Below, one piece after another: positions 4,925 through 15,925 of a DNA stretch of 64,000 bases. Numbering within the stretch: the first letter of the stretch is position 1; every line of letters starts with the position of its first letter. The DNA comes from Halorubrum lacusprofundi ATCC 49239. GTDB lineage: Archaea > Halobacteriota > Halobacteria > Halobacteriales > Haloferacaceae. The notes below the pieces were generated by a model, which did no database searches, was not told the origin of the DNA, and was given only the letters and a program-made list of their open reading frames with translations. The position numbers were made by a program, and so were the translations under genes. The stretch is from contig NC_012029.1 in NCBI RefSeq assembly GCF_000022205.1, positions 2,604,001 through 2,668,000 of the forward strand, in the 5' to 3' direction.

Positions 4925-5007
4925 CGTATAAAGGCTGGTTTACACCCGAGTGAAAGTAAAGATTGGGTGGAAACCGCGCTCCGGAATGGCTCGACACCGT
5001 ATATAAG
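4925..5007 (-). promoter_or_regulatory. radA: radA promoter region with two TATA boxes
   Basis: The proximal box, CTTTATACG on the minus strand (4925-4933), lies about 25 nt before the radA ATG at 4900, predicting a leaderless mRNA. A second strong box at 5000-5007 (TATATAAG on the plus strand, CTTATATA on the minus) is almost symmetric and could serve a longer radA transcript or a short plus-strand transcript toward 5100; no gene follows it on the plus strand. Confidence 0.55.
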
Positions 5008-5106
5008 GCTCCGGGCGGAATCACTGGAGCGGCGTCGCGGCGAAACTGGTCAAAATGAGAGCGGTCGGTCGATGGTGATCGCCTCGTTCCGTACCGTCCC
5101 GCCGCT

Positions 5107-5607
5107 TCAGAACCCGACGCGCCGGACGTACTCCAAATCGCGGATCTCGACGAGCAGATCGCCGGAGAGGTCGGTATCGGTGATCACGTACAGCTTCGGG
5201 TCGTCGGTGAATTCGGGGTCCTCGCTCAACACCTGGCGGATCGAGATGCCGTGGTCGGCCAGGATGCCGGTCACTTCGGCGACGATCCCGGCCTCGCCGG
5301 CGGCCGCGACCTCGATCGTGAGCACCGTGAGGTCCAGCACCGGGGCCAGATCCATCAGGCTCGGCACCGACGAGATGTTCGTGAAGATGCGCTTCAGTTC
5401 GGGGTCGGCCAGTATCGCGTCCGTCGTCGAGTCGACGACGCGGCGGTCGACGTCGAGCTCGCGCGCGATCCCGGTGTAGGGGATCTCGATCCCGCCGGAG
5501 ACGACCCGTCCCTCCTCGTTGACGGAGAAGCCGCGCTCCAAGAACAGCCGGATCACGGCCTGCTGGCTGGGCGACCCCTCGAACTTCTCGAGGATCTCGT
5601 CGAACAT
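5107..5607 (-). CDS. ACT-domain regulator of amino acid metabolism (COG2150-like)
   Basis: 166-aa cytoplasmic protein. The N-terminal 85 residues look like a winged-helix DNA-binding unit (SPSQQAVIRLFLERGFSV, then IARELDVDRRVVDSTTDAIL). The C-terminal half (from about residue 92) is an ACT domain, TVLTIEVAAAGEAGIVAEV followed by ILADHGISIRQVL, the canonical amino-acid-binding beta-alpha-beta. This architecture fits the archaeal family described as predicted regulators of amino acid metabolism containing an ACT domain; target genes and ligand are not known from sequence. A TTTTTAA box about 28 nt before the ATG suggests a leaderless transcript. Confidence 0.82.
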   Translation of the reverse strand: MFDEILEKFEGSPSQQAVIRLFLERGFSVNEEGRVVSGGIEIPYTGIARELDVDRRVVDSTTDAILADPELKRIFTNISSVPSLMDLAPVLDLTVLTIEVAAAGEAGIVAEVTGILADHGISIRQVLSEDPEFTDDPKLYVITDTDLSGDLLVEIRDLEYVRRVGF

Positions 5608-5661
5608 TCGTTGCTACGGTGCTCGTCGCCGAGGGGTTAAAAAGCGGGGTACTGCGAAATC

Positions 5662-6132
5662 TCAGTTCGAGAGCGCCGAGTAGACGCCACCGAGAACCGT
5701 TCCGTAGACGACGTGGCCGACGAGGCTCTCGACGCCGATGTTCGGCAGCGGCGGCGCGCCCGGGAACCCGACGGCGCCCAGCCAGATCGGCATCACGATC
5801 ACCGCGAGCGCGAGCCAGACGAGGAGACCGTAGCCCGCACCGACGCCGAGGCTCGTTCCGATCGAGTCGTCGAGGTCCGGCTTCAGAATCGCGATCGCGG
5901 CGAATCCGAGACCGATGACCGCGCCGTGGGACATGTGGATCGCCCAGCCGACGGCGCCGGCGGGCCCCTCGATGCCGTACATCGCCGGGATCGCCATCTC
6001 CAGTACACCGGGAGTCATCACCGACATCATCGCGCCGAAGACGAGGCCGCCGGCCAGTCCGCCGGCCACGCCGGCCCTCCAGTCACCGTGTTCTATCGAG
6101 ACGTTCGTCGCTGTCGCGGTTTCGGTTGCCAT
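5662..6132 (-). CDS. Conserved haloarchaeal four-TM membrane protein
   Basis: 156-aa integral membrane protein of unknown function. A short acidic N-terminus (MATETATATNVSIEHGDWR) precedes glycine-rich hydrophobic segments (GVAGGLAGGLVFGAMMSVM; VGWAIHMSHGAVIGLGFAAI; GYGLLVWLALAVIVMPIWLG; a C-terminal ESLVGHVVYGTVLGGVYSAL). The ATG at 6132 is used; the open frame runs to 6198 but would cross the promoter and the palindrome. Conserved His and Met residues inside the membrane segments (HMSH, MSVMTPG) might hint at metal or redox sensitivity, but I do not recognise a characterised family. It is divergent from the XPD-like helicase gene. Confidence 0.75.
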   Translation of the reverse strand: MATETATATNVSIEHGDWRAGVAGGLAGGLVFGAMMSVMTPGVLEMAIPAMYGIEGPAGAVGWAIHMSHGAVIGLGFAAIAILKPDLDDSIGTSLGVGAGYGLLVWLALAVIVMPIWLGAVGFPGAPPLPNIGVESLVGHVVYGTVLGGVYSALSN

Positions 6133-6178
6133 AGCAGATTCTGTATCGGCGGATAACCGGTAATAACTGCCGGTAAAG

Positions 6179-6197
6179 TGTGTGCACAGTGCACACA
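6179..6197. promoter_or_regulatory. Perfect 19-bp palindrome, probable operator
   Basis: Reads TGTGTGCAC-A-GTGCACACA, nine-base arms around one central base, in the region between the divergent membrane-protein gene and the helicase gene. It sits just upstream of a minus-strand TATA-like GTTATTACC (about 6161-6170) that lies about 30 nt before the membrane-protein start, the position expected for a dimeric activator or repressor site. A repeated TACCGG word (ACCGGTAATAACTGCCGGTA, 6156-6175) lies between palindrome and start codon. Confidence 0.6.
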
Positions 6198-6309
6198 CCC
6201 CAAACAGATATGTTTACTGAAACGACTGTATCGGAAGGACGGTCACCCGGTCGACCACTTCCACCGCGCCACCCAACCCCTTTTAGCCGGTGGCGACGAA
6301 TCACGTCCC

Positions 6310-8481
6310 GTGTCAGAAGCGCCGCATCTGCGGTTCTTCCCGTACGAGGAGCCGTACCCGAACCAGCGCGAGGCGATGGACAGGGTCGCCAACGCGCTGG
6401 ACCGCGGGCAGGACGTGCTGTTCGAGGGCGCACCCGGGACGGGGAAGACCCTCTCCGCACTCGTGCCCGCCTTGGAACACGCCCGTGAACACGACCGCAC
6501 GGTCGTCATTACGACCAACGTCCACCAGCAGATGCGGCAGTTCGTCGAGGACGCCCGCGCGATCACCCGCGAAACGCCCATCCGCGCGGTCGTATTTAAA
6601 GGGAAGTCGTCGATGTGCCACATCGACGTCGACTACCAGGAGTGTCAAACTCTCCGGGACACCACCCGCGAGATGGTGGAGACCGAGAGCGAGGTCCGCG
6701 AGCTGGAGACCCGCCAGCGCGAGCTGCTGGCCGAGAGCCGCGAGGGCGACGCGGGGGCGGCCGAGGCTCGCGAGTCGGTGATGGACGAGCTCGACGAGCT
6801 GGAGGCCGATATCGACGAGTACGACGCCGCAAACGTCTGTGCCCACTACCGAAATAACCTCGTCGAGGACACCGACGAGTTCTTCGGGTGGCTCTTCGAG
6901 GACGTTCGCACCCCAGAGGACGTGTACGCGTACGCGGACGAGCGTGAACTCTGCGGCTACGAGCTGCTGAAGGAGGGGATGGAGGGCGTCGATCTGGTGG
7001 TCTGTAACTACCACCACCTGCTGGATCCCAACATCCGCGAGCAGTTCTTCCGGTGGATCGACCGCGACCCCTCCGAGATAATCACCGTCTTCGACGAAGC
7101 CCACAACGTCGAGGACGCCGCCCGCGACCACGCCACCCGGACTCTCACCGAGAATACGCTCGACGCCGCCCTCGACGAACTCACGGAGAGCGACGACTCC
7201 CGCGCCGAGGCAGCCGAAAACGTCGTTCGCGCGTTCCGCGATGCCTTAGTCGAGACGCGCGACGATGCGCTCGGCGTCGGCAAGCACGAGTCGATCGGCG
7301 AGAATTGGGAGGATATCTCGATCGCCAACGACGACCGCCGTGACGACCTCACGCTTGCGTTCCTCCGCAACTACGAGGGGAAGGGGATCGACACGGAGAC
7401 CGAGCTCGCCGTCCAGCTCGGACAGGCGCTCGACGAGGAGTACGAGCGCCGCTACCGCGACGGCGAGACCACGACCCGCACCGAGTGCCAGATCCTGCAG
7501 GCCGCCCGGTTCGTCTCGACGTGGATGGAGGAGGGCACGGAGCTCGGCCAGTACCCGGTCGTCTCCGTGCGCCGCGACGGCGCCACCGAGGAGGTGTACG
7601 GCCGCGCGGAGCTGTACACCTGCATCCCCCGTCGCGTCACCGAAGAGCTGTTCGACGAGGTCGCCGCCTCGGTGCTGATGAGCGCGACACTTCGTCCCTT
7701 CGACGTTACCAAGGACGTGCTCGGGCTGGAGGACGTGGCGTCGCTCGCGTACGGGATGGGATATCCCGAGGAGAACCGACGGACGTTCGCGGTCGATACG
7801 CCCCCGCTTTTCGCCTCCGAGCGTAACGACCCGGAGACGCAGGAGACGGTGGCGTCGCTGCTGCGCGACGCGATCCGCTTCACCCCGGGGAACACGCTCG
7901 CCTTCTTCCCCTCCTACGCCGAGGCCGAGCGCTACTACGAGCGGCTCGGAGGCGCCGACCTCGGCTCCCTCTACCTCGACGGTCCCGGCGAGGACGAGGA
8001 GAAACTTCGCCGGCGATTCGTCGAGAGCGACGACGCGACCCTCTTCACCTCCCTCTGGGGAACGCTCGCAGAGGGTGTGAGCTTCGACGGCGACGACGCT
8101 CGGACGGTCGTGGTCGTCGGGGTCCCCTATCCGCACCTCTCGGATCGGATGGAGGCGGTCCAGGATGCGTACAATCGGGTGTTCGCCGACCGCGACCGCT
8201 CTCGGGACCCCGGCTGGGCGTACGCGGTCGAGATCCCGACGATCCGTAAGACCCGACAGGCGATCGGTCGCGTGGTCCGCGGCCCGGACGACTTCGGCGT
8301 CCGGATCCTCGCGGACCGTCGATACACGTCCGCAGACATGGGGAAGTACTCGGTCCGCGGCGCGTTCCCGCCGGAGGAACGCGAGGAGCTACTCGATCTC
8401 GACCCGGAGAAGCTGAAGTTCGCGATGCTGAACTTCTACGGCGATCACGACGCCTACGACGGGGCGCCGCCGGAGCCGTGA
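6310..8481 (+). CDS. ATP-dependent DNA helicase, XPD/Rad3 (DinG-like) superfamily 2
   Basis: 723-aa helicase, probably acting in DNA repair. Motif I FEGAPGTGKT is at residues 39-48; the DEAH box in TVFDEAHNVED is at D262-H265; C-terminal helicase motifs include SATLRPFDVTKDVLG, TLAFFPSYAEAERYYERL, the GTLAEGVSF region and motif VI QAIGRVVRGPDDFG. Cysteines near 103, 110, 177 and 215 are candidates for the Fe-S cluster typical of XPD helicases. I set the start at the GTG at 6310 (MSEAPHLRFFPYEEPYPNQ) because similarity to the family begins there and a CCCCTTTTAG TATA-like box lies about 28 nt upstream; the frame stays open back to 6178. Confidence 0.9.
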   Translation: MSEAPHLRFFPYEEPYPNQREAMDRVANALDRGQDVLFEGAPGTGKTLSALVPALEHAREHDRTVVITTNVHQQMRQFVEDARAITRETPIRAVVFKGKSSMCHIDVDYQECQTLRDTTREMVETESEVRELETRQRELLAESREGDAGAAEARESVMDELDELEADIDEYDAANVCAHYRNNLVEDTDEFFGWLFEDVRTPEDVYAYADERELCGYELLKEGMEGVDLVVCNYHHLLDPNIREQFFRWIDRDPSEIITVFDEAHNVEDAARDHATRTLTENTLDAALDELTESDDSRAEAAENVVRAFRDALVETRDDALGVGKHESIGENWEDISIANDDRRDDLTLAFLRNYEGKGIDTETELAVQLGQALDEEYERRYRDGETTTRTECQILQAARFVSTWMEEGTELGQYPVVSVRRDGATEEVYGRAELYTCIPRRVTEELFDEVAASVLMSATLRPFDVTKDVLGLEDVASLAYGMGYPEENRRTFAVDTPPLFASERNDPETQETVASLLRDAIRFTPGNTLAFFPSYAEAERYYERLGGADLGSLYLDGPGEDEEKLRRRFVESDDATLFTSLWGTLAEGVSFDGDDARTVVVVGVPYPHLSDRMEAVQDAYNRVFADRDRSRDPGWAYAVEIPTIRKTRQAIGRVVRGPDDFGVRILADRRYTSADMGKYSVRGAFPPEEREELLDLDPEKLKFAMLNFYGDHDAYDGAPPEP

Positions 8482-15631: not shown

Positions 15632-15925
15632 AACAGTGCGGTGGCGTCGCCGGCGGCTTTGCCGCCGGCTGCAAGCGAGAGCTTCGCTCTCGCCCTGCTC
15701 GGAGCCCGCGAGGGAGGCGGCGGCCCGGCGTGGGCGGAGCCGCGCCGGGCCGTCCGCCGAGGCTGGGGAGGCGTGAGGCTGCGGTTGCGGTCCCGCGAGC
15801 AACGCGAGCGACTGAAGCGCGTGGTTCAAGAGCGAAGCTCTCTCGTCATCGCCGGAAATTTCCGATGTCCGGCTAGCAGTCAGAATCCGACGGATTCTGA
15901 CGGCATCACGAGACGCCGAAGGCGT
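15632..15925. repeat. Cluster of short perfect hairpins between hisG and uvrB
   Basis: A run of unrelated short inverted repeats: GCCGGCGGC-TTT-GCCGCCGGC (15648-15668), GCGAGAG-CTTC-GCTCTCGC near 15676, GCCGGAAATTTCCG...CCGGC near 15850, GTCAGAATCC-GAC-GGATTCTGAC (15880-15902) and GAGACGCC-GAA-GGCGTCTC (15910-15928). Several have three-base loops. No protein-like frame crosses the region. It lies directly downstream, in minus-strand direction, of the repeated element core at 15.95-16.0 kb, so these could be structured parts of a transcript that starts there and runs toward hisG. Confidence 0.6.

Follow-up and report, generated by a model that had tools for sequence, protein, structure and literature searches.

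Organization of the locus

The window, by which we mean the whole stretch of 64,000 nucleotides analysed, holds a minus-strand gene for a DUF6789 membrane protein, a divergent helicase gene and, between them, a set of promoter-like elements. The features considered are:

5107..5607, minus strand: downstream gene for a TrpY-family regulator with an ACT domain (NF053754, 232 bits against a cut-off of 180); a candidate regulator by adjacency only
5662..6132, minus strand: gene for a four-helix DUF6789 membrane protein of 156 aa, ATG at 6132 (profile match, alignment, AlphaFold2)
6155..6173, minus strand: downstream TATA-like box T2 between CCGG repeats, consensus CCGGCATATATTACCGGTT (T6162, A6161, C6160, C6172 and G6170 each in 29/29 promoters)
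6178..6194, minus strand: putative pseudo-palindromic operator GTGCR-N7-CRCAY, 17 bp, axis 6186 (29-promoter alignment and positional statistics)
6178..6198, no strand: perfect odd-centred palindrome with 10-bp arms, axis 6188 (direct reading and count; not conserved as such)
6208..6213, minus strand: upstream TATA-like box T1, consensus TATATA (A6209 29/29, T6210 26/29, A6211 24/29)
6218..6223, minus strand: GTTTCA element upstream of T1, in Halorubrum only, its spacing to T1 varying by ~2 bases (G6223 24/29, C6219 24/29, T6220 25/29)
6310..8481, plus strand: divergent Rad3/XPD-type helicase, GTG start at 6310, which has a TATA-like CTTTTAG of its own at 6280; not judged to be under the control of the operator

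The assignment of the membrane protein to Pfam DUF6789 (PF20587) is marginal, with 27.7 bits against a curated cut-off of 27.1. The first-pass annotation had described a four-TM protein with conserved His and Met, and this description holds: AlphaFold2 (pLDDT 86.3) predicts long helices at residues 18-39, 56-81, 91-120 and 134-155 along with some short helices, and H66, M114 and H140 are invariant in 24 aligned relatives, as are W18, P115 and N131. A search of solved structures gave no PDB match at E <= 0.001, and the globin rows, with a TM of about 0.3, are meaningless. Related proteins occur in 126 of the 148 genomes of the family and in 90 of the 116 genomes of the class (E <= 1e-10), counts that take in paralogues and fusions. 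In the literature searched, DUF6789 is named in an unrelated nematode paper.

Two observations concern the gene itself. In L063 (1254-2801, minus strand) a 515-aa protein, which by eye resembles a membrane histidine kinase, ends at its C terminus in a DUF6789-like region, and other long reading frames among the family and class matches suggest that DUF6789-kinase fusions are common. In L029 and L014 the promoters are nearly identical, while the DUF6789 proteins belong to two distinctly different types, ~58% and ~85% identical to that of the window, as would be expected from a swap of the coding part at the locus.

A perfect palindrome overlies a conserved site

A perfect palindrome, TGTGTGCAC-A-GTGCACACA, had been reported at 6179-6197; it is present, and one more base pair at either end is symmetric too, giving GTGTGTGCAC-A-GTGCACACAC, 21 bp long, at 6178-6198. 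The accompanying statement that nine pairs per arm lie far beyond chance was not borne out. A script count over the window located odd-centred palindromes with arms of 9 bp or more at four positions (5422, 6178, 6608 and 15879). In 40 sequences of equal length simulated with a first-order Markov model the mean was 1.4, and on this count we rejected the palindrome as a statistical exception. The same count returned a longer perfect palindrome, GTCAGAATCCGACGGATTCTGAC, with 11-bp arms at 15879-15901.

The exact 19-mer is single-copy in the 64-kb window. In the genome search that the annotation had proposed, its 15-bp core recurred elsewhere in the 3.69-Mb genome only with two or more mismatches, so that no second copy comes close. 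Since uniqueness is expected of any one particular sequence, this is no evidence of function, and the functional evidence has to come from conservation across species. The upstream stretches of orthologues were cut by start codon and aligned with MAFFT, the alignment being made without reference to the repeat. Of 43 aligned rows, 29 are distinct Halorubrum-type promoters and define the footprint; the other 14 are rows from outside the genus or L051, which at the site has GTGT-N7-ACAC in place of GTGC.

The footprint consensus of the 29 promoters is GTATATATAnGTTnnGGGnnnGTGCGnCnCGAnCGCACnnTACCGGCATATATTACCGGTTnTC. On the minus strand, GTGC at 6194-6191, C6182 and C6180 are identical in all 29, and the right half-site is weaker, with A6179 in 24 and either G or A at 6181. 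Further invariant columns are T6162-A6161-C6160, C6172, G6170, A6209, T6204 and G6200, while the adjacent columns 6226-6235 carry at most 0.35 bits. Perfect 5-bp arms around a 7-bp loop at axis 6186 are found in 8 of 30 Halorubrum promoters, whereas two control axes had no such repeat and shuffled sequences had 0.2. The alignment thus shows that the site and its position are conserved and that the surrounding intergenic sequence is not.

The perfect palindrome fares differently. At axis 6188 at least 9 of the 10 arm pairs form in one of the 29 promoters compared, which is the window itself, and the others reach at most 8/10; mean complementarity is nearly equal at the two candidate axes (4.83/10 at 6186, 4.72/10 at 6188). 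What is conserved in relatives is the shorter pseudo-palindrome GTGCR-N7-CRCAY, which comes through the comparison by which the annotation had proposed to be judged. Its idea of a regulator site in the promoter is supported by the strong conservation of the footprint, and its basis, a symmetry beyond chance, is not; none of the results speaks to a metal or redox response.

The perfect symmetry in the window's species is either a species-level elaboration of the conserved site or a coincidence upon it, possibly without added function. A chance origin from the alternating GT/AC stretch, with no function beyond the GTGC site, is a serious possibility, if somewhat short of an even one. About one palindrome of such size is expected per window, none of the other promoters among the 29 has it and its axis stands 2 bp off the conserved axis; yet it coincides exactly with the conserved site and takes in all the conserved positions, and the inner bases are palindromic too in some other genera (for example GCGGC-AGT-GCCGC in L121, seen by eye; loop-3 repeats were counted). 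Perfect symmetry in a single genome can, as this case shows, mislead both on the bases under selection and on the position of the axis.

Two other origins of the conservation were rejected. An RNA hairpin or known RNA found no support, the consensus fold reaching -1.57 kcal/mol with a covariation of -0.15, and no Rfam match being found in window positions 5000-7000. An N-terminal coding extension was considered as well, some leaders outside the genus being open in frame with the gene (e.g. L129, L130 and L036); however, the distances from site to ATG, 58-63 bp, break the frame between close relatives. The putative operator is thus neither coding extension nor RNA hairpin, and its position is tied to the DUF6789 start codon.

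Conservation beyond Halorubrum

To follow the site outside the genus, GTGC was counted in the interval 58-63 bp ahead of the ATG. It is present in 29 of 30 Halorubrum promoters, 32 of 59 other promoters of the same family and 12 of 37 promoters of other families, compared with 0, 0-5 and 0-1, respectively, in four equally wide control windows. This count needs no anchor and so serves as the control for a site scan that chooses the best site in each promoter and failed in 13 of 89; among the 40 other-family stretches, three had no usable start or motif. GTGC is missing at this distance from 27/59 and 25/37 of the same-family and other-family promoters, and some of these carry variants.

In other families the commonest inverted-repeat loops are of 13 (7/37) and 12 (4/37), so that the exact symmetry depends on the lineage. 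In three related promoters from a single genus of another family (L272, L274 and L275), both halves have changed in step to GTGGG-N7-CCCAC; such matched changes, like the repeats, were counted as sequences and not as independent events. Outside Halorubrum, CCGAG occurs 40-43 bp upstream of the ATG in 13, 6, 5 and 3 of the 59 promoters at the four distances. In two Haladaptatus promoters (L060 and L061) the region ~45-80 bp ahead of the DUF6789 ATG holds the site doubled into a ~34-bp palindrome, in which GTGCGGGGCGAACGCAC is followed by its own overlapping inverted copy.

Activation or repression

From its sequence the DUF6789 promoter is composite, with the putative operator lying between two TATA-like boxes. 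T2 stands ~30 bp upstream of the ATG and reads TTATTA in the window (about 6165-6160). The palindrome had been placed upstream of the minus-strand TATA and start, which is correct for TTATTA and ATG 6132; a second conserved box, 6213-6208, lies across the palindrome, so that this is one of two possible arrangements.

A short conserved inverted repeat near a TATA-like box, with no RNA-folding support, suggests a site for a dimeric regulator, and the site is very probably a conserved binding site for a putative regulator. Our main reading, to which we give a probability of roughly 0.6, is that the palindrome overlies the conserved operator of a putative dimeric factor controlling the DUF6789 gene, mainly as an upstream activating site. 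A protein dimer would bind GTGCR-N7-CRCAY and act mainly from this position, ~23 bp upstream of T2, and T2 would then drive a nearly leaderless mRNA starting at about 6135-6139. Near-leaderless mRNAs are common in haloarchaea, and the distance of T2 from the ATG suits one.

For the activating role taken by itself the odds are about even. Haloarchaeal activators bind just upstream of TATA/BRE, as described for the GvpE UAS in the relevant passages of PMC4390858 and stated in general terms in those of PMC4287449, and the position of the putative operator would fit half-elements next to BRE/TATA as in a GvpE-type UAS if T2 is the box in use. What counts against an activator is that T1 resembles a TATA box no less than T2 does, and its use would put the operator on the transcription start, which suits a repressor.

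We consider it rather unlikely that T1 (6213-6208) is the working box, with a start near 6185 and a bound dimer that blocks the polymerase. T2 and the CCGG repeats would then fall within a leader of roughly 50 nt, which would need to be conserved without RNA structure, and no Shine-Dalgarno-like sequence is evident by eye next to the ATG. T1 is strongly conserved inside and outside the genus and the operator axis lies ~25 bp downstream of it, on the expected start; moreover, most binding by archaeal repressors takes place downstream of the pre-initiation complex, according to the passages of PMC4287449 on this point. T2, however, is at least as conserved (T6162, A6161 and C6160 in 29/29) and is placed as a leaderless mRNA needs. 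An activator beside the leaderless-type T2 is more probable than a repressor acting with the upstream T1.

Neighbouring genes

That the TrpY-family neighbour is the regulator of the operator appears highly improbable. Each of the 29 Halorubrum rows in the alignment has its gene downstream; however, the protein is single-copy in 116 of 116 haloarchaeal genomes, including those that lack a DUF6789 match, and this makes adjacency in Halorubrum weak evidence. Outside the 29 rows it is not adjacent, except in L051, and the site persists there. The TrpY of methanogens binds TGTACA-type boxes, and this TRP box is absent from 6178-6198.

More improbable still is a site for the divergent helicase, or an operator shared with it: the two TATA-like boxes do lie at a similar distance (~24-25 bp), so that T1 could be read in the reverse direction, and the helicase is the divergent neighbour in 29/29 Halorubrum rows, but it has its own TATA-like box, its distance from the DUF6789 ATG ranges over 170-371 bp while the site keeps to 58-63 bp, and the site is retained in L035, L060, L061, L066, L070 and L071, where the helicase does not occupy the adjacent divergent position. 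The near-fixed distance to the DUF6789 ATG, together with this persistence, indicates that the site goes with the DUF6789 gene.

Copies of the motif elsewhere

When the window's own genome was searched with a 64-column profile of the footprint, a single true match was obtained, at 57.7 bits, and no convincing second site was found. The only other match (14.3 bits) lies inside a reading frame, which we take to encode an MmgE/PrpD-like protein. The composite promoter is thus unique in this genome, and the reading as a binding site has no backing from a regulon.

In pattern searches, 29 Halorubrum genomes yielded 28 matches to the strict pattern GTGCGNNNCGANCGCAC, compared with 3 for a reversed control; many of them are coding (an AAA ATPase and a kinase, by eye) and the noncoding ones lie at unrelated genes, which by eye are an alcohol dehydrogenase, a ubaA-like gene and a zinc-ribbon protein, and for these reasons no regulon is claimed. 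For GTGCGNNNNNNNCGCNCNNCCGAG, found in 47 of 148 genomes, the controls gave comparable counts. GTGCRNNNNNNNCRCNNNNNNNCCGG showed no clear excess over its control, and a less strict pattern, applied to the own genome, matched 219 times per strand against 247 for the control.

Some individual copies were recorded. A similar, compound site, GTGCG-N7-CGCAC-NTCCGAG, precedes a second, ubaA-like E1 gene (L182 1501-1524; own genome C2:1276582), which by eye stands beside SAMP-like and cysteine-synthase-like genes, and it is found also in L177, L178, L183, L082, L086 and L101. With its CCGAG it is retained by Halorubrum and by a single genome from a different genus (G114), and it is absent in four paralogues from outside the genus (L216-L219). 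In three Halorubrum genomes an alcohol-dehydrogenase-like gene has GTGCG-N7-CGCAC right at its start (L073 2010-2026, own genome C2:231810; L097; L103). GTGCGGTCGGCGCGCGCCTCCGAG recurs after a TATA-like box in many Halorubrum genomes (L179, L180, L181, L184 and more places), possibly as a repeated leader or element.

Comparison with known systems and significance

In the literature searched we found no description of GTGCR-N7-CRCAY, which is not proof that none exists. The closest likenesses are to three haloarchaeal systems. In the UAS of the gas-vesicle promoters, as the relevant passages of PMC4390858 describe it, two half-elements adjoin BRE/TATA and are presumably bound by a dimer. That UAS has a known activator and consists of two 8-nt elements with a 4-nt spacer, whereas the putative DUF6789 operator has 5-bp inverted half-sites, a 7-bp spacer and a different sequence, so that GTGCR-N7-CRCAY does not have the GvpE-type geometry.

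The denitrification promoters of Haloferax mediterranei contain the semi-palindrome CGAAYATDKTYG at 66-79 nt upstream of the ATG, and its mutation affects promoter activity (PMC10062603, in the passages on this motif). It differs in sequence and spacing and is common to several genes, whereas the DUF6789 site is single-gene in the window's genome; on direct reading, CGAAYATDKTYG is absent from the conserved site. The RosR palindrome of Halobacterium, TCGnCGACGAGnTCGnCGAC, is likewise an imperfect palindrome of ~20 bp in haloarchaeal promoters; its sequence is different, and the average RosR motif is found no more than 18 bp from the start of the ORF (PMC4287449, in its description of the motif), compared with ~60 bp for the DUF6789 site. 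The RosR core TCGnCGA is absent from 6178-6198.

Judged by its conservation across genomes, the site is a real promoter element of a known kind, and the depth of that conservation is unusual. A bolder reading, which we regard as speculative and doubtful, is of a haloarchaea-wide, essentially single-gene switch, in which a putative dedicated dimeric regulator would use an operator ~60 bp upstream of DUF6789 across several families, and in some lineages the two halves would have changed in step (GTGCG/CGCAC to GTGGG/CCCAC). If this were true, the membrane protein, with its two invariant intramembrane His and its Met, would be the output or the sensor partner of an undescribed pathway. Few archaeal regulators have mapped operators, and a conserved site at a near-fixed position offers a precise handle on the regulator of this widespread, uncharacterised gene, whose signal could in turn hint at the role of the DUF6789 protein.
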